Source: Candidatus Thorarchaeota archaeon (lineage in GTDB: Archaea; Asgardarchaeota; Thorarchaeia; Thorarchaeales; Thorarchaeaceae). Taken from it: a DNA stretch of 51,042 nt. The notes under the pieces were generated by a model, which saw nothing but the letters and a program-made list of their open reading frames with translations, ran no database searches and was not told where the DNA came from. The stretch spans positions 43,489-94,530 of the forward strand of contig JAGXOC010000002.1 of the NCBI GenBank assembly GCA_019894665.1, read 5' to 3'. Shown in pieces: positions 17,961 through 49,566 of the stretch. The position numbers were made by a program, and so were the translations under genes. Positions within the stretch are counted from its first letter, which is position 1, and every line of letters starts with the position of its first letter.

Positions 17961-18515
17961 TTGGAAGAAGAAGGCCCCAGATATGTGCTTAAAATGGTTG
18001 CACTTGGTGACGGGGCAGTAGGCAAGACAAGCTGCATTATGCGATATACCCAGAATAATTTTGGAGAATCATACAAAGCAACAATTGGAACAAACATCGC
18101 CGTAAAAGATGTTGACATTGAGCTTCAACCGGGTGAACCTTCCACTGCACAAGTTGTACTCTGGGATCTTGCAGGACAACCAACATACAAGGATCTTAGA
18201 TCAAGGTATATGGTTGGATCATCTATTGCGTTTCTCGTGTACGATGTGACCAGACCGCCAACATTTCTAAACGTGGCATCGTGGTATGACAGTTTCATCA
18301 AGGTCGCTCCTGATGCTATTGTTACCCTAGTCGCGAATAAAGTAGACAGAGATGATCGAGTGGTCCCTCCTGAGGCAGGAGAGATGGTCAGTAGATGGTT
18401 AAACATAGAATATATTGAGACCTCAGCTAAAACCGGAGAAAACGTAGAAAAGATGTTTACCAAGTGTGTTGAGTCCGCAATTCGAAAAGAGGAAAAGCGA
18501 CTTGGTAACAAATAA
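17961..18515 (+). CDS. Ras-superfamily small GTPase (Rab/Ras-like)
   Basis: The protein (184 residues) has all five G motifs: G1 GDGAVGKTS (residues 16-24), switch I with YKATIGTN (Thr41), G3 WDLAGQP (Asp69, Gln73), G4 NKVD and G5 ETSAKTGEN. The switch II sequence resembles Rab/Ras WDTAGQ with Leu for Thr. The start is TTG at 17961, preceded by an AGGAAGGG-type ribosome-binding site; nearby ATGs are out of frame. The C-terminus (EEKRLGNK) has no Cys, so it cannot be prenylated like eukaryotic Rab or Ras. Expanded sets of such GTPases are a hallmark of Asgard archaea. The cellular role is unknown. Confidence 0.92.
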   Translation: MEEEGPRYVLKMVALGDGAVGKTSCIMRYTQNNFGESYKATIGTNIAVKDVDIELQPGEPSTAQVVLWDLAGQPTYKDLRSRYMVGSSIAFLVYDVTRPPTFLNVASWYDSFIKVAPDAIVTLVANKVDRDDRVVPPEAGEMVSRWLNIEYIETSAKTGENVEKMFTKCVESAIRKEEKRLGNK

Positions 18516-21675: not shown

Positions 21676-21676
21676 T

Positions 21677-23926: not shown

Positions 23927-23936
23927 CTAAATCACC

Positions 23937-25469
23937 TCATGGAACAAAGATTCCTTGTACCGCCGGGACAATGACATCCAGTGCCAGTCCTGGGAATATT
24001 CCAAAGATTACAATGAGGACTCCAAGTATGATCATTGGAATGGTCATGAACCTGGAACTCTCTTTCACATCTTCCAATTCATCGGGATGGGGACCAAGGA
24101 AGACCTTCCAGAAGAAACGCAGCATGTAACCTGCGCTAAGAATTGAACTTGAAACTGCAAGGATAGTGAGAATGAGGAATGGTAGACTTGCAATAGCACC
24201 ACCTACGACTGCTCGCTCGAAACCTCCGAGGAACATCATCCACTCACTAGCAAATCCAGAAAGAGGAGGACTTCCTGCAATGCTCATCATTCCAATAGCA
24301 GCAGCAAAAGCCGTGATTGGCATCTTGTTCGAGAGACCGCCCATCTTATTGATATCACGAAGACCAGTCTGATGAATCACAGCACCTGCGGTCATAAACA
24401 AAAGACCCTTTGAGAAAGCATGGTTGATTAGATGGAACATTCCACCTGCAGCACCCATCGGCGAGTACACGCCCAAGGCAAAGAGAACGTATCCCATCTG
24501 AGACACCGATGAATAAGCAAGGAGTCTCTTGAGGTCAACCTGTGCCAGGGCCATGAAACCACCATAGAACATAGTGATGACCCCTAATGCCGCAACGAAG
24601 AATGATAGCGCAATAGCTGCGTCCGATAGCGTAAGGGTGCCGAACCGTACCAAAGCATAGGCACCAGTTTCGATCATAGCACCTGAAAGCAAGACTGAGA
24701 TTGGAGTGGGTGCTTCAGCGTGAACTGGTGGAAGCCACCAGTGGATGGGAAACACAGCCATCTTCACCAAGAATCCTGCAGCAAGTAAGATGAAGACAAG
24801 TTTGAGGAGAGTTCCAACTGTTATACCCAGTCCTGGAACGAGAGCAGCCGTAGCCAACCCAGCAATTCCAGGCTGAATTAGGGTTAAGTCAAAGGACCCT
24901 GTCAGTGAATAAAGAATCCCAAAACCAACCAGAATACAGACTGCGCCAGACTGGGTGTAGAGCCAGAACTTCATGGCAGTCCGTTTACGAGTCTCGGGTA
25001 ATCCCCAAAAGAGAATCAGGAAGTAGCTAGGTACGAGCATGAGCTCCCAAGCTATGAAGAATTCGATCAGGTTAGTGGCTAAGGTCACCCATTGCATGCC
25101 CATTAGAAAGAAGAGTGTGTTAGCAAAGAAAGTTGGTTTATTTGCACTATGCTCAGTATATCCAACAGCGTATACAACTGATAGAAAGCCTAGTACAACA
25201 ACTGCAAATGTGATTGGAAAAGCAATACCATCTAGTCTTAGGCCAAACTGTTCTAATAATCCGGACCAGGTGGCATACTCCTCGTATGTAGACCCGTTGA
25301 AAACTTGAAAGAAGGGATAGACCATTAATAGTGATGCAACGGCTGAAACTCCAACTGCAACTCTTCCTGCACTATTCTCAAGACGGTCCTTGAATGCATA
25401 GATCAGGAGCGCTCCAAAGAAGAGCACTGCCAATGAGAGGGCAGCAAAGGGGAGGTCTGTGAACTGCAT
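23937..25469 (-). CDS. Second NuoM-type antiporter-like subunit
   Basis: The protein (510 residues) is a fourth antiporter-like subunit in the same operon, placed between NuoI and NuoL. Its signatures are NuoM-like: FFIAWELMLVPSYFLILFWG, KFWLYTQSGAVCILVG, MAVFPIHWWLPPVHAEAPTPISVLLSGAMIETGAYALVRF and LKRLLAYSSVSQMGYVLFALG. The key TM5 Glu and TM7-8 Lys/His regions are present, so it is probably an active channel and not a relic. It starts directly after the NuoI stop codon (TAG then ATG). Standard complex I has only L, M and N. Confidence 0.9.
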   Translation of the reverse strand: MQFTDLPFAALSLAVLFFGALLIYAFKDRLENSAGRVAVGVSAVASLLMVYPFFQVFNGSTYEEYATWSGLLEQFGLRLDGIAFPITFAVVVLGFLSVVYAVGYTEHSANKPTFFANTLFFLMGMQWVTLATNLIEFFIAWELMLVPSYFLILFWGLPETRKRTAMKFWLYTQSGAVCILVGFGILYSLTGSFDLTLIQPGIAGLATAALVPGLGITVGTLLKLVFILLAAGFLVKMAVFPIHWWLPPVHAEAPTPISVLLSGAMIETGAYALVRFGTLTLSDAAIALSFFVAALGVITMFYGGFMALAQVDLKRLLAYSSVSQMGYVLFALGVYSPMGAAGGMFHLINHAFSKGLLFMTAGAVIHQTGLRDINKMGGLSNKMPITAFAAAIGMMSIAGSPPLSGFASEWMMFLGGFERAVVGGAIASLPFLILTILAVSSSILSAGYMLRFFWKVFLGPHPDELEDVKESSRFMTIPMIILGVLIVIFGIFPGLALDVIVPAVQGIFVP

Positions 25470-25901
25470 CTAACGGAACCTCCTTCCGCGCCACTTTAGT
25501 GGCTCTCGGTCAAGTGTTTCAATTTTCTCAGGACCATATATGAGGTCTTCCCGGTCGCCCTCACTCATGTCGACGACGGGAGTGTGGAAGAGCGCTTCAA
25601 ATTTACAGGCTTGAACACATAGACCACAAAAGACACATCGAGTATAGTCAAAATAAAGAGCGCAATCTTTCTCATACTTCTTGTCTTCCTTGTCCATTCT
25701 TATAGCCACCACTGGACATATGCGGACACATTGTGCACAAGCCGTACAGGATTTACGAACGTGGATGTGTCTGCCTCTTGTCCGCTCAGGATATTCTCTA
25801 TCTTCGAAAGGATAGAAATACGTGAAGGGTCTCTTGAAGACCTGTCTGAATGTGTGTTTCAGAATCTGGAAAAAGTCACCTAATACACTGAAGAAACCCA
25901 T
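25470..25901 (-). CDS. nuoI: Complex I iron-sulphur subunit NuoI
   Basis: The protein (143 residues) has two 4Fe-4S motifs, CTACAQCVRICP and CVFCGLCVQACK. The last Cys of the second is followed by Lys rather than Pro. It lies on the peripheral arm next to NuoB and passes electrons towards the N2 cluster. An N-terminal amphipathic helix (FFQILKHTFRQVFKRPF) is typical for membrane contact. It lies three bases from the NuoH stop. Confidence 0.92.
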   Translation of the reverse strand: MGFFSVLGDFFQILKHTFRQVFKRPFTYFYPFEDREYPERTRGRHIHVRKSCTACAQCVRICPVVAIRMDKEDKKYEKDCALYFDYTRCVFCGLCVQACKFEALFHTPVVDMSEGDREDLIYGPEKIETLDREPLKWRGRRFR

Positions 25902-25904
25902 TTT

Positions 25905-27065
25905 TTAGCCGCCTCCTAAGGGGAGCAATGCTGCTATTCCAGGAATATAGACTATTGCGAGCATTATGAGTATGATATTCAAGAGCGCAAGTGGAAGCAG
26001 ATACTTCCAGCAGTAGTGAACTATCTGGTCTTGTCTGAGTCGCTGGAATGACGAACTCACAAGTACAAAGAAGAAGAACGTGATGAGAAACTTCAGTACA
26101 AAGTTCACAGGACCAGCTAATGGACCGGTCAGAGGACCAATCGGGCCACCAAGGAACAAGGTCACAATCAATGCCGAGTAAAGCATCTGTTCCGCGAATT
26201 CGGCGAAATATGTGAGTGTGAAGTGGATGCCGGTGAATTCCGTTCTCCATCCAAAGATGATCTCAGAGTCTGCGACTGGAGCATCGAATGGGAATATACC
26301 CACGGATGCTATTGCTGCCACAAGGAATGTTGCTAGATTGATTGGTAGCAATACCGCAAACCAAATCGATGACTGTGCCGCAGCTATCCCCATGAGACTC
26401 AGGGACCCTGCAAGTAATGCGGGTCCGATGGTAGAGATTATCAGTGGAATCTCAGCTGCAAACTGATTGTTAGCAGCCCTGAAACCACCAATGAGCGAGT
26501 ATTTTGACCCGCTGACCCAGCCAGCTAATAGCGATATGACTGGCACTGCAGTCAGAAATGCAAAGACCAATACTAGACTCACTGAGAGGTCTGCGATAAA
26601 CCAATATTCAAGATCCCAAGGTATGAAAGCGAAGGGCAATAGGACAACTACTAGAAGCAACCCAGGAAGGAATCTGAACATCCATCGCCTGGCATTGTCT
26701 GGAATAATGGTCTCTTTAGCAATCAATTTGATAGCATCAGCAAACAGCTGAAGTCCACCATACTTGCCCAAGTGCACGGGACCACGCCGATCCTGAATTC
26801 TACCCCATAATTTCCGGGTAAACCAAACGGCCCATATCAGAGCCATGACCACGAATATCAAACCAGGGAAAATGATAGCGCGGAAGAGGAACATAAAGTT
26901 GGATGGAAGGAAAATGGTCGCCCATATCCACCGGAACAGATCATACACCCAATAGAAGATGAAGCTCACAATACCGTAAATCCACTGAATAATGCCGTAA
27001 ATCCATTCAGGAATGCCTGCAAGCCATGCAAAGAAGTCGAATTGCAACATGACACCTCCAATCAT
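25905..27065 (-). CDS. nuoH: Complex I membrane subunit NuoH
   Basis: This polytopic protein (about 386 residues) includes the conserved NuoH core: an RRGPVHLGKYGGLQLFADAIKL segment that lies beside the quinone channel, PFDAPVADSEIIFGWRTEFTG, and FTLTYFAEFAEQML. It links the peripheral arm to the pump modules. A longer reading to 27173 runs deep inside nuoD and is unlikely. I place the start at ATG 27065, which overlaps the NuoD stop (ATGA); ATG 27050, behind a close GGAGGT, is the alternative. The usual PEAEQE-type acidic motif is altered (PVADSE). Confidence 0.9.
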   Translation of the reverse strand: MIGGVMLQFDFFAWLAGIPEWIYGIIQWIYGIVSFIFYWVYDLFRWIWATIFLPSNFMFLFRAIIFPGLIFVVMALIWAVWFTRKLWGRIQDRRGPVHLGKYGGLQLFADAIKLIAKETIIPDNARRWMFRFLPGLLLVVVLLPFAFIPWDLEYWFIADLSVSLVLVFAFLTAVPVISLLAGWVSGSKYSLIGGFRAANNQFAAEIPLIISTIGPALLAGSLSLMGIAAAQSSIWFAVLLPINLATFLVAAIASVGIFPFDAPVADSEIIFGWRTEFTGIHFTLTYFAEFAEQMLYSALIVTLFLGGPIGPLTGPLAGPVNFVLKFLITFFFFVLVSSSFQRLRQDQIVHYCWKYLLPLALLNIILIMLAIVYIPGIAALLPLGGG

Positions 27066-28198
27066 CTGTCCCACCACCCTGGATATGGATCTAAGCTTCC
27101 AAATATCACAATAAAGTCCGCAAACTTCGAGCCAGGCACTAAGTCCTTCAAGGCATAGTACGAGGCGATACAAGGCCCACGAATCTTGGCACGATATGCA
27201 GTCTGTGCTTTATCTTGGGTCTTGAGCCACAGTGTTGTGATACCTCTTGTACCCTCTACTCGGGCATATGCTTCCCCTTCAGGAAGTCTGTTTGCTTTTC
27301 CACGAGCCTTAGGATCAATTATCGGTCCTTCGGGTATCTGAGGTATCAATTGTTTGATGATCTCACATGCAGTTTCAGCCTCAGCAAATCGCTGCTCCAT
27401 CCTGTCTAGAGCATCGCTTTGGCCTGGATGTTCAGGATTCTCTGTGATGGGTACTTCCCAGTCTACCATGTCATAAGCAAGGTTCGGATCGGGGTCATCC
27501 TTTCTCAGGTCCATTGGGATACCGCATGCTTTCATAGGTGGACCACTCAGTCCCCATTTGAGACCCTGCTTAACATCGTATAATCCAATGTTCTCAGTTC
27601 TTGCCCTGAATGTTGGACTTCCCATTTGCATGTCTCTGAATTTGGGAAGCCTGTCCTCGAACCTATCTAAGGCTCGATTAAGTTGTTTCATGGACTTCTC
27701 TGTGAAATCATACTTTACGCCTCCTGGAGTAGAGTACGAAACAGTGTGTCGTGAACCGGTGAGCTCTTCAAAGGCATCAAGGGAATACTCTCGGTCGACC
27801 CATGGCCAGAGAGCCATTGTGAAGAAACCAAGCTCAGCATTAAACTGACCCCACCAGAACTGGATGCTGTGTAGACGGGACATCTCCATCATGATAGTCC
27901 GCATCACTTTCGCACGTTCTGGCACTTCGATCTCTGCAATCTTCTCAACTGCTGCAACATATGGATACTCAGCTAAGAATGCCTCAAGCATACACATTCG
28001 TTCTAATATAAGAGCGCCTTGTCTGAAGTTCTTGTACTCAAGAACCTTCTCAGCAGAACGGTGGAAGTAGCCAGCGTTTGGATCGCACTCGACAACATAG
28101 TCACCAACCAGTGTCAATTTAGTTGCCCAGCCGTGTGCTGAAACATGTTGAGGACCAAACCAGAGCTCCATTGCGTCTTCAAGAATGTCAGGACTCAC
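27062..28198 (-). CDS. nuoD: Complex I 49-kDa-type subunit NuoD with altered quinone site
   Basis: The protein (378 residues) opens with GPQHVSAHG (His18, His22; His22 corresponds to the quinone-site His of complex I) and ends in SLDPYPGWWDR, the family's usual end. It is a full-length NuoD related to NiFe-hydrogenase large subunits. Nickel ligands are missing. Where complex I has Arg-Met-Asp-Tyr with the quinone-binding Tyr, this protein has ERMCM (66-70), so Asp and Tyr are replaced by Cys69 and Met70. It overlaps NuoC by four bases. With NuoB and NuoH it should form the acceptor site; the acceptor may not be an ordinary quinone. Confidence 0.92.
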   Translation of the reverse strand: MSPDILEDAMELWFGPQHVSAHGWATKLTLVGDYVVECDPNAGYFHRSAEKVLEYKNFRQGALILERMCMLEAFLAEYPYVAAVEKIAEIEVPERAKVMRTIMMEMSRLHSIQFWWGQFNAELGFFTMALWPWVDREYSLDAFEELTGSRHTVSYSTPGGVKYDFTEKSMKQLNRALDRFEDRLPKFRDMQMGSPTFRARTENIGLYDVKQGLKWGLSGPPMKACGIPMDLRKDDPDPNLAYDMVDWEVPITENPEHPGQSDALDRMEQRFAEAETACEIIKQLIPQIPEGPIIDPKARGKANRLPEGEAYARVEGTRGITTLWLKTQDKAQTAYRAKIRGPCIASYYALKDLVPGSKFADFIVIFGSLDPYPGWWDR

Positions 28199-28722
28199 TG
28201 GCTGTCACCTCCTGGTTCGGGTCGAGGTTTTGGTGGCGTTATTCCAGTCTCGTTCAGTCTGCTTCTGTCAGTCTGGAATCTCTTACGCATCGGATAAGCT
28301 CCATCCAGCTCATCAGGTAGTAGTAGAAGTCTTGGATCAGGATGATTCTTGACCTCGATTCCAAACATCTCTCGGACTTCCCTCTCATGCCATTCGAGTC
28401 CAGGAAAGATGTCACAGGTACTCTCTATCTCAGGTTTTTCACCCTCTAGAGAAACTCGCAATTGAAGTAGCAATCGACTAGTGTATGACCAGAAGATGTA
28501 GATGAGCTCGTATTGGTCATTCTCAAGGTCAACACCAAACATTGACTCAGGGAGAACATCTTGGATTTCCTCATCGATCAGTGTAACAACATCGCGTATC
28601 TTGTTGGCGGGAACAACAAGCTCAATCCTGTTATCGCCGAGAGGATTTGATGTAACTTCAGGAATCTTGTTAATGACTAATCTTCCGAAAGTGGAAGCAT
28701 TAGTTGTAGACGAGTCAGACAT
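28195..28722 (-). CDS. nuoC: Complex I 30-kDa-type subunit NuoC
   Basis: The protein has the diagnostic NuoC segment LEWHEREVREMFGIEVKNHPDPRLLLL followed by YPMRKRF (split by GAY). The open frame extends to 28755. I place the start at ATG 28722 because AAAGGAGG lies at the right distance upstream and the ATG follows the NuoK stop by one base (TAAGATG). The C-terminus (PKPRPEPGG) overlaps the NuoD start by four bases. It is a structural subunit of the peripheral arm. Confidence 0.92.
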   Translation of the reverse strand: MSDSSTTNASTFGRLVINKIPEVTSNPLGDNRIELVVPANKIRDVVTLIDEEIQDVLPESMFGVDLENDQYELIYIFWSYTSRLLLQLRVSLEGEKPEIESTCDIFPGLEWHEREVREMFGIEVKNHPDPRLLLLPDELDGAYPMRKRFQTDRSRLNETGITPPKPRPEPGGDSQ

Positions 28723-28723
28723 C

Positions 28724-29035
28724 TTATGGTTCCTCCTTTTGGATTGGTTGTCCAAGGTCCACTGTGTCGTATCGTCGGTTATACATCAGCATCAAGACCA
28801 GAGCCAAAGCAGTGTGAGCCGCTGCAACAGAGATAACGAGTATGATCAATCCTTGTCCTGTGAAAGTGAAGACTGGGCTATAGAGTGACATAGCCACAAG
28901 AGCGATGTTAACGCCATTACCCATGATTTCCGCACCAATGAGGATCCTGATGAGGTTCCTTTTGACCATCATGCCATAGCCGCCCAAACCTATCAACATG
29001 AATGCAAGAATAAGGTACCACGATAGAGGGACCAT
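28724..29035 (-). CDS. nuoK: Complex I membrane subunit NuoK
   Basis: This 103-residue, three-helix protein has the conserved buried Glu segment IRILIGAEIMGNGVNIALVA and a second-helix AAHTALALVLML. Start and NuoJ stop overlap by one base (TAATG at 29035). It belongs to the E-channel region of the membrane arm. Confidence 0.92.
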   Translation of the reverse strand: MVPLSWYLILAFMLIGLGGYGMMVKRNLIRILIGAEIMGNGVNIALVAMSLYSPVFTFTGQGLIILVISVAAAHTALALVLMLMYNRRYDTVDLGQPIQKEEP

Positions 29036-29679
29036 TATGCATCCACCTCCTCAGGTTCTTCAGCGGGTGGTTCTTCATCCACTGGAGATTCATCTTCTTC
29101 AATTGTAGGCTCAGCCTCTATGCCGAAGTCTCCACGAATGGATCCAATCTGTTCAGCTTTATCCATCTTCAAAAGAGCAATTGCCCCTACTAGTGAGGTG
29201 ACCATGATGAGTGCAATCATTTGCACATAGATGCCATTGTTAGCCCACAACCAAAGCGCAAGTTCATTCAGATCATTTGAGATTATTACAAAAGTCTCAT
29301 CAAATGACTCTGCCCACGGAAACAGTAATGCTAGGATACCAGAGAGTGCAGCGACAATAGCAGCAACCATTAATCCTATCCGTCGCTTTCTCTTCGATGC
29401 GAAAGTTTCCAAGGAGGAATCTTGGGCTCTTGGTAGTAGCAGGACTGCAAAGATAATGAGTGCACTGATTCCTCCTGTGTACACCGCTATCTGCATCCCT
29501 GCAATGAAAGGTGCCTCAAGTAAAAGGAAGAATCCAGCAACAAAAGATGCCATGAAACCAAAGAAGAATGCAGCATAGACTATCTCTTTGTGTTCAAGCG
29601 CGAGATATGCAAGAACCAACACAATACCAGCAATCAGGAGAAACTCTACCTGTTCAAAAGCTCCTTCAAAACCCTGCAC
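29035..29679 (-). CDS. nuoJ: Complex I membrane subunit NuoJ with acidic C-terminal tail
   Basis: This protein of about 214 residues has five membrane helices, including the conserved QIAVYTGGISALIIFAVLLL segment (positions as in the pi-bulge helix of NuoJ). The frame is open to 29760, but that would overlap nuoA by 80 bases. GTG 29679, preceded by GGAGGTCACTAAA and lying just after the NuoA stop, is the likely start. The last about 25 residues are mostly Glu, Asp and Pro (EEDESPVDEEPPAEEPEEVD), an unusual tail shared in style with the 30876-31448 protein. Confidence 0.9.
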   Translation of the reverse strand: MQGFEGAFEQVEFLLIAGIVLVLAYLALEHKEIVYAAFFFGFMASFVAGFFLLLEAPFIAGMQIAVYTGGISALIIFAVLLLPRAQDSSLETFASKRKRRIGLMVAAIVAALSGILALLFPWAESFDETFVIISNDLNELALWLWANNGIYVQMIALIMVTSLVGAIALLKMDKAEQIGSIRGDFGIEAEPTIEEDESPVDEEPPAEEPEEVDA

Positions 29680-29680
29680 T

Positions 29681-30136
29681 TTAGTGACCTCCTGCAGCAT
29701 GTGGTTCTTCTTTTCTTTCAGCCTTCGCCTTGCGATACGCCTCAAGGGTCTCTTCCCCATTAAGGAAAGATTGCGGGAGCATCTTCATTACGTAACCGAT
29801 TCCGCCCATGATGATCAACATGAAAACAATGACCTGCCACACAACTTCATACTTGGTTGCATCAGACCACAGGATGTTCGATGAAGAAAGAAGCCAGAGG
29901 AATGCACCCATCACATCAACGACGACGAAAAGAACAGTGTAGACGAAGTAATTGTAAGGGTAGGAAATCCTAGCCGGTCCTATGGGTTCTTCTCCACACT
30001 CATAAGTCGAAGTCTTCTCAGAGTTTTGAAGTACGTGAGGACGAAGTACCCATGATGCCAATAGCATCACTACAACTAGGACCACTGCAAGTAGGGCCCA
30101 TATCAAGACTGGGATGAAATCGAGAAACAACCTCAT
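29681..30136 (-). CDS. nuoA: Complex I membrane subunit NuoA
   Basis: The protein (151 residues) has three membrane helices and the conserved loop STYECGEEPIGPARISYPYNYF (split at SYP) whose Cys lies near the quinone cavity. It ends in a charged, His-rich tail. It is the first gene of the eleven-gene operon. AGGAG lies 11 bases upstream of ATG 30136. Confidence 0.92.
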   Translation of the reverse strand: MRLFLDFIPVLIWALLAVVLVVVMLLASWVLRPHVLQNSEKTSTYECGEEPIGPARISYPYNYFVYTVLFVVVDVMGAFLWLLSSSNILWSDATKYEVVWQVIVFMLIIMGGIGYVMKMLPQSFLNGEETLEAYRKAKAERKEEPHAAGGH

Positions 30137-30499: not shown

Positions 30500-30865
30500 G
30501 TGATTTATTTGACTAGTGGCGAAGAAGGCACATTCTTCTATTATCTTGCACTCTTGATTGGAATGGTTCTGTTAGGAGCTTATTTTTGGACACTCATGAA
30601 TGCAACAATTATCGGAGTGAGCATGATCCTCTATTTGACACTTGTTTTAGGTGGGATGCTCCTAGTAGGTTCGACGTTTGGTTTTTCATCAACCAATACA
30701 CGATCTAGTAGAGTTGGTCTTACCATGCTCACTGGAATCCTCGGAGGGATTCACATATTTCTCCTCTTTACAATATTTGATCTAATTGTAGGGATTATCC
30801 TGTTTGCATGGATGGGCATAGGACTTCTGATTGCGTTTGCTGCCTACAGCTGGCTTCATGAGTAG
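30500..30865 (+). CDS. Small four-helix membrane protein, unknown
   Basis: I do not recognise this 121-residue protein. It has about four hydrophobic segments (near residues 12-30, 37-58, 72-90 and 92-118) joined by short loops, one being SSTNTRSSRVG. The start is GTG 30500 or TTG 30509; the latter has TAGGTGA seven bases upstream. It is the only plus-strand gene within the complex I region and converges on an accessory gene, so it need not belong to the complex. Confidence 0.5.
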   Translation: MIYLTSGEEGTFFYYLALLIGMVLLGAYFWTLMNATIIGVSMILYLTLVLGGMLLVGSTFGFSSTNTRSSRVGLTMLTGILGGIHIFLLFTIFDLIVGIILFAWMGIGLLIAFAAYSWLHE

Positions 30866-30881
30866 GTAGTCAGACCTACTC
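30860..30881. terminator. Hairpin spanning both stop codons of convergent genes
   Basis: GAGTAGGT (30860-30867) and ACCTACTC (30874-30881) form a perfect 8-bp stem with a 6-base loop. The TAG stop of the rightward gene and the TAG stop of the leftward gene both lie inside the arms. It may act as a bidirectional transcript end, although no long T-tract follows on either side. Confidence 0.4.
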
Positions 30882-31448
30882 AGTTTCAGCATCAGGCACT
30901 GGCTCACTTGAGGCTTCAGTTGTTTCCTCAACAGTGGGTTCAGTAGTTTCTTCCTCACCTGCGGATTCTACTTCAGGTTCAACTTCTTCTTCTACTTCAG
31001 GTTCAGGTTCTGGCTCGGGACCATAATGCAAAGCACTTGTGTCCAGAATACCAGGTGAGTAACTCTCCTCACGATTATGCATCATGGAAAAACCAGCAGC
31101 TGTGATTATGGAACCTCCTAGACCCCAACAGGAGAGGTACAGAGTTGTTCCTACTGAGGGAAGGGCCATTACAAACTGATCAATGAAAACAACAAAGAAG
31201 AAGCCAACAAGAACTGAGAGTGCCATCATCAGATTCTTGCCTTTTCCTTTTTCAGGTCGGAAGTATCCAATCAAGAAGAAAACTAAGAGAATGGACATCC
31301 CACCGATGAGAGTGAACGAACCTGCGATGACCAAGGACGCAGCTGGCATCAAGAATCCAAGATAGATAAAGTTGAAGATGAATGCTGTAAGTATGATCAA
31401 GCCAAGAAAGAGCATACAATACGGATCACTATCTTGCCTGAGTGACAT
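30876..31448 (-). CDS. Membrane protein with acidic tail, coupled to the GlcD-NuoB gene
   Basis: I do not recognise a family. The 190-residue protein has about five hydrophobic segments in residues 10-130, a basic loop (RPEKGKGKN), and a C-terminal tail of about 55 residues made of Glu, Pro, Val and Thr repeats. ATG 31448 overlaps the stop of the upstream GlcD-NuoB gene by one base (TAATG), so the two proteins are made together. Because the partner is a complex I subunit without its own membrane anchor, this protein is a candidate accessory subunit or docking protein. That is inference. Confidence 0.6.
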   Translation of the reverse strand: MSLRQDSDPYCMLFLGLIILTAFIFNFIYLGFLMPAASLVIAGSFTLIGGMSILLVFFLIGYFRPEKGKGKNLMMALSVLVGFFFVVFIDQFVMALPSVGTTLYLSCWGLGGSIITAAGFSMMHNREESYSPGILDTSALHYGPEPEPEPEVEEEVEPEVESAGEEETTEPTVEETTEASSEPVPDAETE

Positions 31449-33388
31449 TACTGCATCATCCCCATTGCATCTTGATTCTCGTATTTCTGCTGCCAGTGAG
31501 TTGTACCTGCACGAATCTTGTTCTGCAGGATCAGATGTGCTCTGATGAAGTCAGCTGGCTTTGGTGGACAACCCGGAAGATAAACGTCCACAGGTACTAT
31601 TTTGTCAGGTGGTGTTGCTAGGCTGTAGCCTTCCCAGAACAGCCCGCCTGAGGCGACGCACTGACCAAAGGCAATGACGAACTTTGGCTCTGGCATCTGC
31701 TCGTAGATACGTCTGAGTCTTGGGGCCATCTTCTTGGTCAATGAACCGGAGATCCATAGAACGTCAGTCTGTCTTGGACCGAAGAGTGGGAGCATTCCGA
31801 ATCTCTCAAAGTCCCAACGGGGTGCAATTCCTGCGGCACCATCAACCATGCAACAGCCAATACCGAACTGCATTGGCCATGGACTATGAGCTCTGCCCCA
31901 CCTAAGCATCCATTTCAACGGGGGTACATTCTGCAACCATTTCAGAAGTATTGGCGCTATTCGACCCCAGCCATTTCTGAATAGGTCGAAGAATATCCAC
32001 ATGAAGTATTTTCCGATTCTGAGAATGAATGGTAACCAGTAGGCGAAAATCTTGCCCGGATTTGAAATCTCATTCTTGTCCCATGTGAGCTTTGCCGATC
32101 TTATTCTAGAGAGTCGTTGTTTTCCAAAGTACTGTGAAGCATAATTAGCGAACCAAATTCCTGTTGAGTGGACATGGCCACCGTGACGTTGTGCGATTTT
32201 GAAGATGACAAAGCTTTGTGACCAAGAGAGCATGTAGAAGTGTCTTCGCTCATCTTCGAGGAAGTAGCCCATCATGGTGACCCCTGTCTTAGAGTTCACA
32301 TAACCGTCAATGCCAGCCTTAGCTGATGCTTGTTCAAACTGGAAGTCATCAAGTATTGCGACCAGATTCTCTAGGGGTGCGAACGCCTGACCAACGACAA
32401 GTGTTGGTCCCTTCTTCTTAATCTTCATCGGATAATAACGGTCGTGCCATTCATGTTCTGCAACGTCATCACCGTAGACGACTCCGCGGTACATCTCAGT
32501 GACCTCTTCGACCACCTTGATGCCCTCCTCTATCTCTTCCTCATCACCCTCATAGACAACCATGAGTGAGCAATGATGGGCAGGAATCGGGAATGGCTTC
32601 TCACCTTCCCAGATTGCCTTCTTGAGGTCTGTATACTTTGATTCTTCAAACTTGATGGTGAAGGGTAGTGGACCATCCTCGAGTATCTTCTCGATAGCTA
32701 AGACCATCTGATAGTTCTCTTCAAAACTGGAAACTATCACTTTCATTGGCATGAGGGTCTTGATCTTTAGAGTGACCTTTGTGATGATTCCAAGAATACC
32801 TTCGGTATCACAGAATAGGTCAATGTCCTTGGTCTTGACAATCTTCCCGGTTGGTAGTACAACTTCCAACATGACAACGTTTTCATTGATATTGCCATAT
32901 TTGAGAGACCCAATACCGTCCCCACCCTGGGCAACCCAGCCGCCGATTGTTGCTGAGAGACCTGACGAGGGATAACAACGGATATCCAAGCCCTTCTTGT
33001 TCAACTCAAACTGAAGATTAGCCCAAGAGATGCCAGGTTCAACAATGATGATCAGGTTCTCCTCATCAACTTCGAGGATGTTGTTCATACGGCGAGTATC
33101 TACTACGACGCCACCCTTTCGGGGTATAGCACCTCCGTAGCCTGAGGTACCAGCGCCTCGGGGAACGAGTGGTACTTTCTCCTTCTGAGCGAATTTGTAA
33201 AGAGCACTGATCTCCTCAGGAGTCAGTGGTTGGACAATGGCATCAGGGGTTGTGTTCATAAGCCAACCAACTTGCTTTGGTAGAGAACCGACGTCTAGGG
33301 CTGAGAGAATCAATTCATGCTTCTCTGTCAGCAAACGGTCACCAAAAATCTCAGCGAGTTTCTCGTTCTGCTTACGCTTCAGGACCAT
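31448..33388 (-). CDS. Fusion protein: GlcD-type FAD-linked oxidase plus complex I NuoB
   Basis: This single 646-residue frame combines two families. Residues about 45-215 are a PCMH-type FAD-binding domain (VPRGAGTSGYGG at 75-86, GGWVAQGGDGIGSL at 149-162); about 216-446 is the FAD-oxidase C domain, ending in NPGKIF. A hydrophobic linker (about 449-490) follows. Residues about 498-630 are NuoB, with SPWPMQFGIGCC, four cluster N2 ligands (Cys512, 513, 577, 607), RWDFERFGM and VPVDVYLPGCPP. No separate nuoB exists in the window. The oxidase part has lost the usual metal-site motifs (GHxGDGNxH reads GYFLEDERRH; GEHGIG is also broken), so its substrate is open. The start has GGAGAG eight bases upstream. 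No internal ATG before the NuoB part has a good ribosome-binding site. Confidence 0.9.
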   Translation of the reverse strand: MVLKRKQNEKLAEIFGDRLLTEKHELILSALDVGSLPKQVGWLMNTTPDAIVQPLTPEEISALYKFAQKEKVPLVPRGAGTSGYGGAIPRKGGVVVDTRRMNNILEVDEENLIIIVEPGISWANLQFELNKKGLDIRCYPSSGLSATIGGWVAQGGDGIGSLKYGNINENVVMLEVVLPTGKIVKTKDIDLFCDTEGILGIITKVTLKIKTLMPMKVIVSSFEENYQMVLAIEKILEDGPLPFTIKFEESKYTDLKKAIWEGEKPFPIPAHHCSLMVVYEGDEEEIEEGIKVVEEVTEMYRGVVYGDDVAEHEWHDRYYPMKIKKKGPTLVVGQAFAPLENLVAILDDFQFEQASAKAGIDGYVNSKTGVTMMGYFLEDERRHFYMLSWSQSFVIFKIAQRHGGHVHSTGIWFANYASQYFGKQRLSRIRSAKLTWDKNEISNPGKIFAYWLPFILRIGKYFMWIFFDLFRNGWGRIAPILLKWLQNVPPLKWMLRWGRAHSPWPMQFGIGCCMVDGAAGIAPRWDFERFGMLPLFGPRQTDVLWISGSLTKKMAPRLRRIYEQMPEPKFVIAFGQCVASGGLFWEGYSLATPPDKIVPVDVYLPGCPPKPADFIRAHLILQNKIRAGTTHWQQKYENQDAMGMMQ

Positions 33389-33650: not shown

Positions 33651-33717
33651 ACGAATACAGGCCAACTTTTGAAACCCGCCGTACTTGATACTCAAGAACC
33701 ACCTTGGTGAACGCGTC

Positions 33718-36700
33718 ATGAAGTCTTCTAAGAAACTATCAATTGTCATTATATTTTGTTTTCTTACCATTGTATTTTCAGGGGCCTATTCAGCTATAGG
33801 CAGACCTACTTTTACTAATGAGTGTGGGTCATCTGGGTGTCATGACACTCATACAATGACAATATCATCAAATGCTACTGGTCCTGTCAATGCCAATGTT
33901 GGCGTCAGCTTCACATTAGTTGTAGATGCAACATCAAATGATGGTGGTGCCAAATCGGGCGATATGGCAGTCGCAGTGTTGAGTGGATGGGCGGATAACA
34001 ACCAATTCTCGTTCACAGACCAGTCGATAATTGATGATGCGGCTGGAGATTCAAATGCGAATATCGCCGAGATGACTGTGACTTTTACTTTCACGCCCCT
34101 TAATGCTGGGTCTTGGACTCTTAGAATATGGACAGGTGCAAAAGGTGATCTGGCACAAGTCCTTGATGTGTCAGTGTCTGTCATATTAGCAGACTCTACT
34201 CCCCCTACAATTGACAGTCCCACAGACATGACAATCGATGAAGGAGATGTCACAAAGAGCATTACATGGAGTCCATCAGATGCAAATCCAAGCTCCTATG
34301 AGATTTTCGACGACAGTGTTTCTTGGCAGAGCGGCGTTTGGGGTGGTTCAACCATCACTGTGCAGCTTAGCTCACTTGGACTTGGGACTCACAACATAAC
34401 ACTCGCAGTTTGGGATGCAGTTGGTAATACCGCATGGGACCAGGTAGATGTTACTGTTGTCGATGGAACATTACCTCTCATAGACAGTCCTGCAAATGTG
34501 ACACACAGCGAGGGAGCCACTGGATACTCAATAACATGGGATCCAACAGATGTTCATCCGGTCAGCTACACAATCTATAGAGAAGGAACACCTGTGAAGT
34601 CAGGCGCATGGAATTCCAGCATTGAGACCATTACAATATCTGTAGATGGTCTTGCAGTTGGTACCTATAACTACACCATCGTAGCAACAGACGTTGGATC
34701 AAACACAGCTGTTGATACAGCGTACGTCATCGTCTATGACGGGACATCTCCAACTATAGATAGCCCAGCAGATGTATCATATGATGAGGGAGCAACTGGA
34801 TATTCTATCACATGGGACCCATCGGATGTGAATCCGGTCAGTTACATAATCTATAAAGATGCAGTACTAGTGAAATCAGGATCATGGAACTCAAGTTCGG
34901 AGACAATAAGCATTTCAGTCGATGGTCTTGCAGTGGGTTCATACAGTTACGTTTTGGAGGTGACTGACGTTGGTTCTAACACAGCTACTGACACAGTTGC
35001 TGTCATCGTTTCGGATGGCACAGTACCCACAATTGACAGTCCCATCGATATCACATATGATGAAGGAGTAACTGGATATTCCATCACATGGGACCCTTCA
35101 GACTTTAATCCTCAAAACTACACGATCTATAGGGATGGACTGGCTGTTAGATTCGGTTTATGGAATGCAAGTGTAGAAACTATCACAATCTCAGTCGACG
35201 GACTCTCTATGGGTTCATACACTTACATGCTTATTGTTGGTGATGTGGGTCTAAACACGGCATCAGATTCAGTTCTTGTCACTGTGCTTGACGGCACAAA
35301 CCCCACAATAGATAGTCCGATTGACCGGGATGTAGTCGAGGGTACAAGTGGCAATCAAATCACATGGAGTCCATATGACCTTCATCCGTCTTCTTACGAA
35401 ATCTATCGGGAAGATGTTCTTGTCAAATCAGGACTATGGAATAGCAGCTCAGAAACAATTACCTTCTCTGTTGATGGTCTCTCTTTGGGAGTCTATAACG
35501 TTACAATAGTTGTCTATGACACAACTTCAAGGGTAGCCATTGATACAGTGTATATCACTGTATATGACGGTACAACACCCGTCGTGGATAGCCCTGTAGA
35601 CATTGATTATCCAGAGGGGGATACAGGGTATTCTATAACTTGGGACCCTTCAGATCTACATCCAGTAAGTTATCAGATTCTGCGGGAAGGACTACCCGTA
35701 AAATCAGGTACATGGAACTCATCTAGTGAAACAATGACCGTTTCTGTTGATGGACTTTCAATTGGATCCTACAATTACACGATTGTGCTTGTCGATGTAG
35801 GTGGCAATACGATGACTGACGAAGTCACCGTTACAGTATACAATGCTGATGTGCCATCAATCAACCAACCAGCAAACCAGACTATTTCTGAGGGAGCTAC
35901 AGGTCTCTTCGTTACATGGAACCCATTGGACCTCAATCCATCATCATATGCAATTTACCAAGATGGAGTTCTTATGAAATCAGGTGCATGGAATTCTAGT
36001 TCTGAAACAATCAGTATATCGCTTGATGGATTAACACTCGGAACCTACAACTTCACAGCTCTAGTCACAGACCTTGACAGTAATACTGCAGCAGACACAG
36101 CGTGGGTCACCGTGGTCGATGGTACACCTCCAGTAATTGACAACCCTATTGACATCACTTACGATGAGGGAAGTCCTGGAGGAACTCTCACATGGAATCC
36201 AACCGACTTGCATCCAGTCAGCTATACGATCTACTTGGATGGTACTCCAGTCAAATCTGGACAATGGAACTCCAGTGGTGAGTCTATCTCGATATCAGTC
36301 AATGGACATCTAGTTGGGGATTATAATTACACAATTAGGGTCGTAGATGATGGAGGCAACTTTGGCATCGATACCGTATTCATCTATGTGTTGGACGGAA
36401 CACCCCCAACAATCGATACTCCTAGCGATATCAATTATAATGAGGGTGATGCTGGCGGGTCAATTACGTGGGATCCTTCGGATGCGTATCCAGTGAGTTA
36501 TGATATCTACAGAAATGAGGTTCTTGAGAAATCTGGTTTGTGGAACACCACTTCGGAGGCGATCTCCGTTTCTGTGACTGGTTTAGCTGTTGGACAATAT
36601 AACTTCACAATCATAGTGTATGATGTTGGTGGAAATTCTGTTTCAGACTTAGTTTGGGTCACAGTATCTGACGCAACACCTCCGACAATTGATACACCAA

Positions 36701-37953
36701 TTGATAGATCACTCAACGAAGGTCAATCTGGAGAAATAATCACATGGACTCCTGACGATCTGAATCCAACTGGTTATGAAATCTATATTGAAGATGTACT
36801 TGTGAGAATTGGTCAATGGAACTCGAGTTCAGAAACAATCTCGGTTTCACTTGACGGACTTGGATTAGGCATATACAACTTTACGCTGGTTGTCATTGAT
36901 ATTGGTCTGAACTCTGCAAATGATACCGTGTTGATAACTGTCCTTGATGGTACAGATCCAATAATCGATAGTCCTGCAGATGTCTACTATGGTGAAGGTG
37001 CAACTGAGTACAACATTACCTGGAATCCTTCAGATTTGCATCCAGTCAGCTACGAAGTCCTCCGTGAAGGTGTACAAGTCAAGACAGGTTTGTGGAACTC
37101 ATCTTCTGAAATCATAACAATCAATGTGGATGGTCTGATTCTGGGAACGTATAATTTCACAATCTATGTCTTGGACATTGGTGGAAACACAGCTAGTGAT
37201 ATAGTGTTCGTGTATGTTTCTGATGGCAGTGCTCCTACAGTAGATAGTCCTCCAGATGTGATCTACAACGAAGGCGATACTGGGTACTCCATAGTTTGGA
37301 ATCCAACAGATGCTCATCCATCAAGTTACGAAATCTATAGAGAAGATGTGCTTATTGTATCAGGATTATGGAATTCTTCTTCAGAATCAATCTCTGTATC
37401 GGTGGATGGTCACCAGTTTGGATCCTATAATTATACTGTCCTTGTGATTGATGTTGGAGGTAGTAGCGCACGCGATACTGTGTTTGTCTATGTTCAAGAT
37501 GGGACAGGACCAATAATCGATAGTCCTGCAGATGTCCTCTATATTGAAGGTGAAACCGGTCACACAATATCATGGAACCCATCTGATCTTCATCCAGCAA
37601 GTTATGAGATCTTCAGAGATGGCCTAGTAGTCAAATCAGGAGTATGGAACTCAAGCAGTGAAACGATATCGATTTCAGTAGATGGACTTTCCCCAGGAGA
37701 GTACAACTATACAGTTTCTGTAACAGACCTTGGAAGCAATTCTATTGCGGATCTGGTCATTGTCATGGTCGAAGCTGCAGCTACTTCATCAAATCCAACG
37801 ACTACTTCTCCATCAACTCAAACCACAACTTCTGAATCACCACCTCCACCAGCAATCCCAATGGAGCAGGTTTTGATTGTCATTTTGACTTGGGTTGGTA
37901 CTGGTGTTATTGTACTTCTGATTGCAGAAGGTATAATTCGAAAGACCCGCTAG
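33718..37953 (+). CDS. Surface protein 1: candidate haem c motif (CX4CH), 13 repeats, membrane anchor
   Basis: From ATG 33718 (longer frame to 33685 less likely) the 1411-residue protein has a signal peptide (about 1-26) and then ECGSSGCHDTH with Cys36, Cys41 and His42, a CX4CH motif able to bind haem c. A beta domain of about 120 residues follows, then thirteen repeats of 92 residues with the pattern P-x-I-D-S-P ... EG ... I-T-W-x-P-S-D ... SG-x-WNSS-x-E. A Thr/Ser/Pro stalk and a membrane helix ending in IIRKTR close the chain. Many Asn-x-Ser/Thr sites suggest glycosylation outside the cell. The layout recalls bacterial choice-of-anchor V proteins (CxxCH next to an Ig-like domain). The function is unknown. 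Confidence 0.8.
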   Translation: MKSSKKLSIVIIFCFLTIVFSGAYSAIGRPTFTNECGSSGCHDTHTMTISSNATGPVNANVGVSFTLVVDATSNDGGAKSGDMAVAVLSGWADNNQFSFTDQSIIDDAAGDSNANIAEMTVTFTFTPLNAGSWTLRIWTGAKGDLAQVLDVSVSVILADSTPPTIDSPTDMTIDEGDVTKSITWSPSDANPSSYEIFDDSVSWQSGVWGGSTITVQLSSLGLGTHNITLAVWDAVGNTAWDQVDVTVVDGTLPLIDSPANVTHSEGATGYSITWDPTDVHPVSYTIYREGTPVKSGAWNSSIETITISVDGLAVGTYNYTIVATDVGSNTAVDTAYVIVYDGTSPTIDSPADVSYDEGATGYSITWDPSDVNPVSYIIYKDAVLVKSGSWNSSSETISISVDGLAVGSYSYVLEVTDVGSNTATDTVAVIVSDGTVPTIDSPIDITYDEGVTGYSITWDPSDFNPQNYTIYRDGLAVRFGLWNASVETITISVDGLSMGSYTYMLIVGDVGLNTASDSVLVTVLDGTNPTIDSPIDRDVVEGTSGNQITWSPYDLHPSSYEIYREDVLVKSGLWNSSSETITFSVDGLSLGVYNVTIVVYDTTSRVAIDTVYITVYDGTTPVVDSPVDIDYPEGDTGYSITWDPSDLHPVSYQILREGLPVKSGTWNSSSETMTVSVDGLSIGSYNYTIVLVDVGGNTMTDEVTVTVYNADVPSINQPANQTISEGATGLFVTWNPLDLNPSSYAIYQDGVLMKSGAWNSSSETISISLDGLTLGTYNFTALVTDLDSNTAADTAWVTVVDGTPPVIDNPIDITYDEGSPGGTLTWNPTDLHPVSYTIYLDGTPVKSGQWNSSGESISISVNGHLVGDYNYTIRVVDDGGNFGIDTVFIYVLDGTPPTIDTPSDINYNEGDAGGSITWDPSDAYPVSYDIYRNEVLEKSGLWNTTSEAISVSVTGLAVGQYNFTIIVYDVGGNSVSDLVWVTVSDATPPTIDTPIDRSLNEGQSGEIITWTPDDLNPTGYEIYIEDVLVRIGQWNSSSETISVSLDGLGLGIYNFTLVVIDIGLNSANDTVLITVLDGTDPIIDSPADVYYGEGATEYNITWNPSDLHPVSYEVLREGVQVKTGLWNSSSEIITINVDGLILGTYNFTIYVLDIGGNTASDIVFVYVSDGSAPTVDSPPDVIYNEGDTGYSIVWNPTDAHPSSYEIYREDVLIVSGLWNSSSESISVSVDGHQFGSYNYTVLVIDVGGSSARDTVFVYVQDGTGPIIDSPADVLYIEGETGHTISWNPSDLHPASYEIFRDGLVVKSGVWNSSSETISISVDGLSPGEYNYTVSVTDLGSNSIADLVIVMVEAAATSSNPTTTSPSTQTTTSESPPPPAIPMEQVLIVILTWVGTGVIVLLIAEGIIRKTR
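34198..37779 (+). repeat. Thirteen tandem 276-bp coding repeats
   Basis: Successive units begin with Thr-x-Pro-x-Ile-Asp at an exact spacing of 276 bases (92 codons) for most units, and the region spans almost exactly 13 units. Protein sequence is conserved (ITWDPSD, WNSSSETI, VDGL, YNYTI, D-x-GGN), while DNA sequence varies at third positions, so the array is old enough to have diverged and is kept by selection on the protein. Confidence 0.85.
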
Positions 37954-38000
37954 ATGTTCAAAGCCAACTTATACCAAAGAAATCGGGAGTTGAAAATTAG

Positions 38001-38070
38001 GAGCTCATGAACAGAGCCGCTTACAGTCTGTAGCGTGGAAACTAGTAAGATAAAGACCTAGCGAGAGAAT
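38001..38070. repeat. 70-base upstream element, copy B (orphan)
   Basis: This is the second copy of the 33401-33470 element, in the same orientation, about 86 percent identical by eye. It lies between surface protein 1 and surface protein 2 and has no minus-strand gene to drive, unlike copy A. The remainder of the 37954-38269 gap is AT-rich with the TATA-like box described at 38205. Confidence 0.75.
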
Positions 38071-38204
38071 GGGAAAGTAACAAAATTCGAATCTTCTCAA
38101 GATACTTGACCATAATTTGAGATGATTTTATGACACTTTCAAAGTGAAACTTCTATCGATTTTTATTTACATTTCTAACATTTCTTGAATCATTTTGAAG
38201 TATG

Positions 38205-38213
38205 CTTATATAA
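38205..38213 (+). promoter_or_regulatory. TATA-like box for surface protein 2
   Basis: CTTATATAA matches the archaeal TATA consensus very well and is about 57 bases upstream of ATG 38270. Surface protein 3 follows after one base and likely shares this promoter. Confidence 0.5.
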
Positions 38214-38269
38214 CCAAATTTTGCAGGCGCTCATCCGTGTAGGGCACACTACGATTGAGGACCATAAAC

Positions 38270-40543
38270 ATGAACCAAAGGACAAGGGCCAAACTTGGAA
38301 TCACAGCTGCTTTTGCACTTCTTCTTTTTCTTGGAGCTACCGCAGCAATTGCAGAACCGGATTTCACTGCTGAATGTGGAGGGTGTCATTCTGTTCACCC
38401 CGCTTATTCGATGACCTCAAATGCAACTGGAACAGTCAATGCATACATTGGAATTCCATTCACTTTAACGATTGATTCCTCTCGACCTGCAATGGGTGGG
38501 GGTAGGTTCTTCTTCAGTATTCAGAGTGGTTGGGCGAATAATGATAACTTCACTTTTACTCCAACCCTTGTTGAGGATAATCAAGACGGAGACTTAGATT
38601 CATCGGTATGGACAATTTCTGTAGAAGTCACTTTCACACCACAAAGCCTTGGATCATATACAATCAGAGCATGGTGTGCATCAGAAACTGGATCAAGGAG
38701 TATTGATATCGCGGTGGATGTTGGAGAATCAGTCCCACCTACTATAGATAGTCCTCCAGATATGCAGGTGTCCGAAGGGAACATGTCAGCATATGTAACA
38801 TGGAATCCAACCGACACATATCCGGACAGGTATGAAGTTTATGACAACGAGGTCTTATCTTCGAGTGATGCATGGAACGGTTCGTCAATCACAATTGGAC
38901 TTGGTACTCTCTCGTTGGGAAATCACAATCTAACAATAGTTGTGTTTGATACGTCTGATAATATTGCAACAGACCAAGTGGATGTCTTAGTAGTTGATGC
39001 TGTTTTACCTGTCATAAACCACTTAGACAACACTACGATATCAGAGGGAACCTTAGCATCCCTGGAGTGGTCACCCTCAGACCTTAATCCTTCAAGTTTC
39101 GAATTGTATAGAGAAGAGAGCCTCATAGATTCAGGCATATGGAGCGGGGGTAATATTACTTCATCCCTCGTAGGTTTGACAATTGGGGAGTACAACTACA
39201 CAGTTGTCGTTTTTGATACAAGTGGAAACTCAGCTTCAGATACAACCTTTGTCACAGTAATTGATGATACGTTGCCCATTATTGATAATCCAGATGATAT
39301 TGAGTACTCAGAGGGCTCAACTGGAAATACAATCGTATGGGTTGCCTCTGATCAGAATCCAAGTACATTCACCATTTACAGAGATGAGATTATCATACGA
39401 TCAGATGCATGGACTGGGGCTCCAATTCTTCAATCAATCGATGGACTAGCAATAGGTGTCTACAATTACACAGTAGTAGTCACGGACACTAGCGGAAATT
39501 GGGTTTCAGATGAAGTGAATGTCACAGTGATATTCCCACCAGAACCGACTCTTGACCATCCAGCTGATCAGATAATAGACGAAGGCTCGACAGACAATTG
39601 GATCAATTGGATGCCAGATGATGTAGACCCCTCAAGGTATGAGATTTACCAAGACAGTATTCTGATCAAATCGGGACTATGGAACTCGAGTTCTGAAACA
39701 ATCTCAATATCCATTGATGGATTATCTGCTGGAGTTTATGACTTTGAACTCATTGTCTATGATGATCTAGATCACACAGCAACAGACTTAGTAATAGTGA
39801 TCGTGAATGATGTTACAACACCAACAATTGACTCACCAAGTGACTTCGCAATTAATGAAGGTGATATCGGTCAGATCATAGCCTGGGCCCCAGGTGACTC
39901 AAACCCTATTTTCTATGAGATCCAAATTGATGGTGTGTTGGTATGGTCAGGACTATGGAATTCCAGCGTAGAATCAATCATAGCATCATGTGATGGTCTA
40001 GTATACGGAACACATGTTTTCACGATAATCGTTACTGATGTTGGAGATAATTCAGTATCTGATGAAGTCACAATTACTGTTCTTGATGGAACAGCACCAA
40101 TTGTGAATAGTCCCGCAGATATTGTCTATCAGGTTGCAACCACAGGTCACAACATTACCTGGATACCTTCAGATGCTCATCCATCTCTGTTCATTATTGA
40201 GATCAATGGAGTAGTCATTCTATCTGGTGGATGGGATGGACAACCGATATTCATCAATGTAGATTGGTTGAGTGAAGGATCTTACGAATACACACTCACT
40301 GTTTTCGATAGTGGAGGGAACACTGAAACGGACATTGTGATTGTAACTGTAACAATTGATGACCCATCTGCAACAACAACAACAGAGACCACCACAGCAA
40401 CCACAACAAGTCCGGGATCAGGAATTCCGGTTAATGATGATGAACAAACGGAAGCTGCAACATTTAGCGCGGTCATGCTTTCAATGGGAATAATCATTGG
40501 TGTGCTTGGAATACTCTTGCTTGTAGACCGAAGGAGGCGCTAA
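38270..40543 (+). CDS. Surface protein 2: candidate haem c motif (CXXCH), 6 repeats, membrane anchor
   Basis: ATG 38270 gives a 757-residue protein (the frame also opens at TTG 38255). Signal peptide about 1-28; then AECGGCHSVHP with a canonical CXXCH (Cys36, Cys39, His40) and nearby His43 and Met48 as possible axial ligands. A beta domain follows, then six repeats of about 90 residues of the same family as in protein 1, a Thr-rich stalk (ATTTTETTTATTT), a membrane helix (LSMGIIIGVLGILLLV) and a basic end. It should sit on the outer face of the membrane. Haem attachment would need a Ccm system; a CcmF-type gene is at the right end of the window. Confidence 0.8.
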   Translation: MNQRTRAKLGITAAFALLLFLGATAAIAEPDFTAECGGCHSVHPAYSMTSNATGTVNAYIGIPFTLTIDSSRPAMGGGRFFFSIQSGWANNDNFTFTPTLVEDNQDGDLDSSVWTISVEVTFTPQSLGSYTIRAWCASETGSRSIDIAVDVGESVPPTIDSPPDMQVSEGNMSAYVTWNPTDTYPDRYEVYDNEVLSSSDAWNGSSITIGLGTLSLGNHNLTIVVFDTSDNIATDQVDVLVVDAVLPVINHLDNTTISEGTLASLEWSPSDLNPSSFELYREESLIDSGIWSGGNITSSLVGLTIGEYNYTVVVFDTSGNSASDTTFVTVIDDTLPIIDNPDDIEYSEGSTGNTIVWVASDQNPSTFTIYRDEIIIRSDAWTGAPILQSIDGLAIGVYNYTVVVTDTSGNWVSDEVNVTVIFPPEPTLDHPADQIIDEGSTDNWINWMPDDVDPSRYEIYQDSILIKSGLWNSSSETISISIDGLSAGVYDFELIVYDDLDHTATDLVIVIVNDVTTPTIDSPSDFAINEGDIGQIIAWAPGDSNPIFYEIQIDGVLVWSGLWNSSVESIIASCDGLVYGTHVFTIIVTDVGDNSVSDEVTITVLDGTAPIVNSPADIVYQVATTGHNITWIPSDAHPSLFIIEINGVVILSGGWDGQPIFINVDWLSEGSYEYTLTVFDSGGNTETDIVIVTVTIDDPSATTTTETTTATTTSPGSGIPVNDDEQTEAATFSAVMLSMGIIIGVLGILLLVDRRRR

Positions 40544-40544
40544 G

Positions 40545-42845: not shown

Positions 42846-42956
42846 CAATCTTAGAACTGAATAGTTCCAATGTTGATAAAATCTGAAGTGGAAAGATTTT
42901 AAGGTGCCTTGCACCGGTCCTCATCCATCAGTCACAAGTCGTGGAGACCAAAAACT

Positions 42957-47070: not shown

Positions 47071-47202
47071 GGTATGCACCCGATTATGGCACAACCTTTC
47101 CTCACATAGAAAAAGCTTGCCTTTCAAACCACGCTTGCAGAAGAAAGGTAACTGCTTTAAGGTGCTTACGATTAGAAGAAAAATATCTAGGTGTATCATC
47201 TA

Positions 47203-48246: not shown

Positions 48247-48256
48247 TTCGGAAGAA

Positions 48257-49447: not shown

Positions 49448-49509
49448 TCATTATCCATCCAAAATTGTCTTTGATGATTGAACATGTCCGGGGTATAAAC
49501 CCTTCTTGA

Positions 49510-49555: not shown

Positions 49556-49566
49556 TGAGAATCACT

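Follow-up and report, generated by a model that had tools for sequence, protein, structure and literature searches.

A flavoprotein fused to the NuoB subunit of a headless complex I in Thorarchaeota

Here we describe a thorarchaeotal gene of 646 codons without interruption that joins a PCMH/VAO-type FAD domain to a complete complex I NuoB subunit. It lies on the minus strand (33388 to 31448) of the window, as we call the whole stretch of 51,042 nucleotides of Candidatus Thorarchaeota DNA analyzed here, beside a nuoA-N operon that has neither a nuoB of its own nor an NADH module. The evidence supports a flavoprotein that is covalently part of the headless complex I of Thorarchaeota, a group related to the archaeal ancestor from which eukaryotes descend, and the fused flavin together with an adjoining disulfide-reductase-like gene suggests an ion pump that exchanges electrons with a soluble compound rather than with NADH. 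The link between archaeal headless complex-I-like pumps and soluble redox partners has been an open question resting on gene co-occurrence. The flavoprotein of the proposed partner, welded onto the subunit of the last cluster, testifies directly to contact and offers biochemists a construct ready to use, and it places an unusual energy-conserving complex, with one of the two quinone residues at its NuoD site, in the Asgard archaea.

An earlier note on this DNA, made from the sequence alone, had read one frame running from an FAD oxidase into a complete NuoB, and profile matches and an alignment of relatives bear this out. The protein is composed as follows, in window positions.

31448 to 33388, minus strand: FAD oxidoreductase-NuoB fusion, 646 aa (open frame, Pfam and NCBIfam matches, relatives' alignment)
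32051 to 33256, minus strand: PCMH/VAO-type FAD domain with FAD-oxidase_C, residues 45-446 (Pfam, alignment, fold match)
31886 to 32038, minus strand: linker, residues 451-501, modelled as three helices, aromatic and amphipathic (structure model)
31451 to 31885, minus strand: NuoB domain, residues 502-646, with the N2 ligands C512, C513, C577 and C607 (Pfam, NCBIfam, alignment)

The FAD part makes up about the first 450 residues, with Pfam matches to FAD_binding_4 at residues 48-186 (1.2e-40) and FAD-oxidase_C at 216-447 (1.2e-8). Similarity to NuoB sets in at about residue 493; the NCBIfam model nuoB_fam matches residues 493-627 with 165.8 bits against a cut-off of 142.7, and Oxidored_q6 matches residues 524-617 (2.2e-22). 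Among 20 aligned fusions, cysteines 512, 513, 577 and 607 are invariant, the adjacent CysCys being of the complex I type, and the FAD-binding half shows strong conservation, long parts of it being invariant. A shallow alignment gave a poor structure model of the fusion (pLDDT 50), and a deeper alignment was used instead; in the resulting model (pLDDT 87, pTM 0.73) the two domains are bridged by the three helices of residues 451-501, which are less confidently placed (pLDDT about 66-73).

The fold of the FAD domain matches those of D-lactate dehydrogenase and AGPS, which puts it in the PCMH/VAO superfamily. The narrower label of a GlcD-type oxidase, under which the earlier note had cast the domain as an electron entry, did not survive: the glcD model (TIGR00387) scores 148.8 bits on the fusion, far below its cut-off of 567.9, and an alignment with the paralog L079, which carries GHVGDGNFH and GEHG, shows that the GHxGDGNxH and GEHG metal and catalytic motifs are missing. 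On these two grounds we reject its identity as a GlcD-type hydroxyacid oxidase, and the missing motifs make a GlcD-type entry unlikely. The absence of C-terminal catalytic motifs found in characterized relatives could also mean that the domain has stopped trading electrons with N2 and serves a structural or regulatory purpose instead, since fusion domains can turn into scaffolds. Such a conversion would be at odds with the invariant stretches of the FAD-binding half and with a CCG gene that stays linked to the FAD domain (see below), and we regard it as quite improbable.

When looked for in relatives, the two-domain architecture proved to be common: 31 of the 47 genomes of the window's family (Thorarchaeota, Asgard archaea) carry it at or close to full length, and one further family genome has it cut by a contig end. 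The window's protein is 76-93% identical to the other 19 aligned fusions. No two-domain match in any other Asgard family was among the matches listed for 228 Asgard genomes, and a scan of 84,980 species genomes with two peptide patterns, which distant fusions would escape, returned only fusions of the Thorarchaeota family. Nearly all named carriers are filed as Candidatus Thorarchaeota; two bear the label Lokiarchaeota and two are called just 'archaeon'. Most or all carrier genomes are metagenome-assembled, which is a point in favor of a misassembly or an annotation artefact. Against it, the identical frame, full length and free of internal stops, recurs across the 31 family genomes, from many studies and independent metagenomes, one carrier being a chromosome record of 3.16 Mb (CP070761, L058). 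In practice this leaves no room for an assembly error or a local frameshift, and the probability of an artefact is negligible. The fusion is real.

The neighborhood of the fusion encodes the rest of a complex I, together with two small membrane proteins.

30876 to 31448, minus strand: conserved 190-aa membrane protein encoded immediately behind the fusion, with four predicted TM segments and outside any known family (position kept in most loci)
30500 to 30865, plus strand: 121-aa membrane protein ORF between the fusion unit and nuoA, no Pfam family (conserved in 25 loci)
29681 to 30136, minus strand: NuoA (NCBIfam match)
29035 to 29760, minus strand: NuoJ (Pfam match)
28724 to 29035, minus strand: NuoK (Pfam match)
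28195 to 28755, minus strand: NuoC (Pfam match)
27062 to 28198, minus strand: NuoD, with Met (RMCM motif) at the Nqo4 Tyr87 position and the His38 position retained (Pfam, alignment)
25905 to 27062, minus strand: NuoH (Pfam and profile matches)
25470 to 25901, minus strand: NuoI, eight invariant cluster cysteines (Pfam, alignment)
23937 to 25469, minus strand: extra NuoM-like antiporter subunit, a fourth pump (Pfam and profile matches)
21677 to 23926, minus strand: NuoL, 749 aa (Pfam and profile matches)
20071 to 21675, minus strand: NuoM (NCBIfam match)
18542 to 20074, minus strand: NuoN (NCBIfam match)

All core subunits (A, B, C, D, H, I, J, K, L, M and N) are thus found at one locus, NuoB in the form of the fusion, and four antiporter-type subunits (the NuoM-like extra, L, M and N) are encoded at 18542-25469 on the minus strand. 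A gene for a Ras-family small GTPase (17961-18515, plus strand) adjoins nuoN. The earlier description of the neighboring operon as holding the other core subunits while lacking nuoB and the NADH module is accurate, but operon and fusion do not form one uninterrupted unit, the 121-aa frame at 30500-30865 standing between them on the opposite strand. NuoF (PF01512) was not found in the window's own genome, which is 90% complete, and no F420H2-oxidizing FpoF/FqoF subunit is among the annotated genes of the window.

A separate nuoB elsewhere in the genome would have undone this assignment. Two proteins of the genome match PF01058, the fusion and a small subunit (C133), and the latter belongs to the cluster of a soluble, group-3b-like hydrogenase that also encodes NAD-binding and FeS proteins, so that we reject it as a second complex I nuoB. 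In 31 genomes the fusion is accompanied by an ortholog of NuoD (at least 74% identical); G219, with NuoD and no fusion, and G220, with the fusion and no NuoD, depart from this pattern, and both are fragmented drafts. The fusion is very probably the working NuoB of the adjacent headless complex I, and the proposal of a flavoprotein built into complex I is upheld in this sense.

While the covalent flavin on NuoB stands and the GlcD label does not, the earlier interpretation had missed two features that bear on how the complex might work, namely a CCG-domain partner and the absence of the quinone tyrosine of NuoD. The first is encoded upstream of the fusion.

42909 to 44183, plus strand: CCG-domain (HdrD/GlpC-like) iron-sulfur protein, proposed partner of the FAD domain (profile and structure matches, synteny, alignment)

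This gene lies divergently upstream of the fusion in all 25 loci with enough upstream sequence, and in 20 of them it is directly adjacent. The best profile matches of its product are TfrB, LdhH and GlpC, all below cut-off, and its solved relatives include HdrB; 18 cysteines, invariant in 24 sequences, make up two ferredoxin motifs and two complete CX34-35CCX35-36CxxC motifs. Three large proteins separate the CCG gene from the fusion in the window. These (33685-42845, plus strand) have weak T9SS-sortase/LapB-repeat matches, and homologs of one or another of them occupy that place in some relatives, not most. On the far side, a DUF7530 and pyridoxamine-oxidase-like protein (44235-45512, plus strand) often adjoins the CCG gene. 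The distance of 3-10 kb between CCG gene and fusion in some genomes, the window included, and their divergent transcription count against the reading that we favor below, as does the moderate confidence of the linker helices.

Other arrangements of these genes, together with the divergent synteny, provide separate lines linking FAD domain, CCG protein and complex I. FAD and CCG parts form one polypeptide of 1070 aa in G060, a genome of another Asgard family (L064 1547-4756); unfused nuoL/M/N, FAD, CCG and menA-like genes follow one another in this order on one strand in G217, with G057 alike; and an unfused FAD gene lies directly after the CCG gene in G016. The FAD protein of G016 (L061 9998-11494) ends with ...PPLKWIRNDM, at the place where similarity to NuoB begins, and judging from this sequence its gene may have lost the NuoB domain or may preserve the state before fusion. 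The fused FAD domains form one clade in a quick tree (SH-aLRT 97), with G016 as its sister (100). Several FAD-CCG pairs are also present on C221 of the window's own genome (L028 1-19990), two of the FAD proteins having C-terminal TM helices, in a cluster with a six-CxxCH cytochrome c, a DUF2231 membrane protein and CcmA/B/C-like genes; similar genes occur near the fusion in other genomes. Given the CCG gene upstream of the fusion, we read the flavin domain as half of a two-protein module, in which the CCG protein would bind the fused FAD domain, and the two probably constitute a redox module of this complex.

The second feature concerns the quinone site. Aligned with Thermus Nqo4, the NuoD proteins have Met at the Tyr87 position in all 25 fusion-linked rows (22 genomes) and retain His38; as Fpo/Fqo NuoD lay outside this comparison, the absence of Tyr87 cannot yet be called specific. 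Genes with a possible bearing on a lipid carrier lie at the other end of the window.

46015 to 47199, minus strand: MenA-like UbiA prenyltransferase, conserved neighbor (TIGR00751 above cut-off)
47191 to 48246, plus strand: polyprenyl diphosphate synthase, conserved neighbor (annotation, synteny)
48257 to 49447, minus strand: geranylgeranyl-reductase-like protein, conserved neighbor (profile matches, synteny)

A CcmF-like protein is also encoded in this part of the window (46015-51009). MqnA/D was not found in the window's own genome and MenD had no match above cut-off in 44 relatives' genomes, and the lipid carrier may therefore come from an unknown route. The MenA-like and isoprenoid neighbors, His38 of NuoD and the complex I type of the N2 CysCys mean that a quinone-like acceptor may still bind. 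Taken further, they lead to a ferredoxin:quinone complex I with a branch, in which a MenA-derived quinone would be reduced via a modified cavity, and FAD and CCG would serve as a second entry or exit sharing N2. The conserved MenA-like neighbor, the retained His38 and the placement of FAD, CCG and menA-like genes on one strand in G217 and G057 are consistent with this arrangement; with Met in place of Tyr87 in every fusion-linked NuoD aligned, and the quinone itself left unproven by the MqnA/D and MenD results, we consider it unlikely.

The reading that we tentatively favor, at a probability just short of even, is instead that N2 of this headless complex I trades electrons with the built-in flavin/HdrD-like module, from ferredoxin to disulfide and possibly in both directions. 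We infer an exchange of electrons between FAD and N2, with ferredoxin as the input and a disulfide as the acceptor. Reduced ferredoxin would donate electrons to NuoI, and the two [4Fe-4S] clusters of NuoI would hand them to N2 in the NuoB domain, from which they would travel through the fused FAD to the CCG protein encoded upstream. The latter, whose clusters would be two cubanes and two of the HdrB-like kind, would deliver the electrons to a disulfide-like acceptor in the cytosol, and the energy released would power the four antiporter-type subunits; in the reverse mode, an ion gradient would drive thiol oxidation and ferredoxin reduction. Textbook potentials lie near -450 mV for reduced ferredoxin and near -140 mV for a disulfide, a span comparable to known coupling; this span, the HdrD-like nature of the partner and the lack of hydroxyacid motifs favor the ferredoxin-to-disulfide direction, although we hold this direction with somewhat less assurance than doubt.

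Electrons might also run the opposite way, from flavin to N2, as the earlier note had allowed; an organic substrate or a dithiol would then reduce FAD via the CCG protein, and N2 would pass the electrons on to quinone. The normal role of GlcD/GlcF-like pairs is indeed the oxidation of substrates, and the fold shared with D-lactate dehydrogenase and AGPS fits such a role; the missing GHxGDGNxH and GEHG motifs do not, and by textbook potentials the gap from a hydroxyacid or thiol to menaquinone is too small to run four pumps forward, which makes this entry improbable. The CCG partner, the missing NuoD tyrosine and the redox energetics together favor a flavin exit or a reversible branch over entry from an organic substrate. 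The most far-reaching version of the ferredoxin-to-disulfide reading, in which N2 would react with the covalent flavin in place of quinone, yielding a quinone-independent Asgard complex I that pumps via FAD and the HdrD-like protein, is possible but doubtful.

No report of a covalent FAD-NuoB fusion was found in the open-access literature searched, in line with the earlier note, which knew of no such complex described. NuoB is also a fusion partner elsewhere in Archaea, but the complex I section of one survey mentions only B-C and B-C-D fusions, which join it to complex I subunits and to no flavoprotein (PMC11237513). The best solved match of the Thorarchaeota NuoD is MBS, the membrane-bound sulfane sulfur reductase of Pyrococcus (6u8y), which is without both quinone residues, His38 and Tyr87 (PMC7684303). 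The two are alike in keeping the first NiFe-type Cys and in missing Tyr87; the MBS proximal cluster is held by three Cys in a shortened loop, whereas the Thorarchaeota N2 has the adjacent CysCys and four Cys, and the His38 position is retained in Thorarchaeota and not in MBS. These ligands and His38 led us to reject an MBS-type enzyme. The 2M complex I of Nitrospira, for which an insertion in helix HL of NuoL is diagnostic, likewise has four pumping subunits by way of an additional NuoM, and no flavoprotein fusion was reported for it (PMC9040806).

Close parallels are also the Fpo/Fqo-like headless complexes of methanogens, Archaeoglobus and Bathyarchaeia, which share the eleven core subunits without NuoEFG and the presumed ferredoxin input at NuoI. 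Unlike them, the Thorarchaeota complex bears a covalent FAD oxidoreductase domain on NuoB and has a fourth antiporter subunit; judged against Thermus Nqo4, its NuoD also misses the quinone tyrosine. For Bathyarchaeia, Verstraetearchaeota and Archaeoglobi, earlier work has put forward a coupling between Fpo-like complexes and HdrD, along with hdrD-glcD pairs (PMC8407382, PMC6783470, PMC6474303), and these systems likewise bring together a pump, a GlcD-like flavoprotein and an HdrD-like CCG protein as one energy-conserving set. There the link was inferred from co-occurrence, whereas in Thorarchaeota flavoprotein and N2 subunit are one polypeptide: what was known before is the proposed Fpo-HdrD coupling, and what is new here is its covalent flavoprotein-NuoB version.
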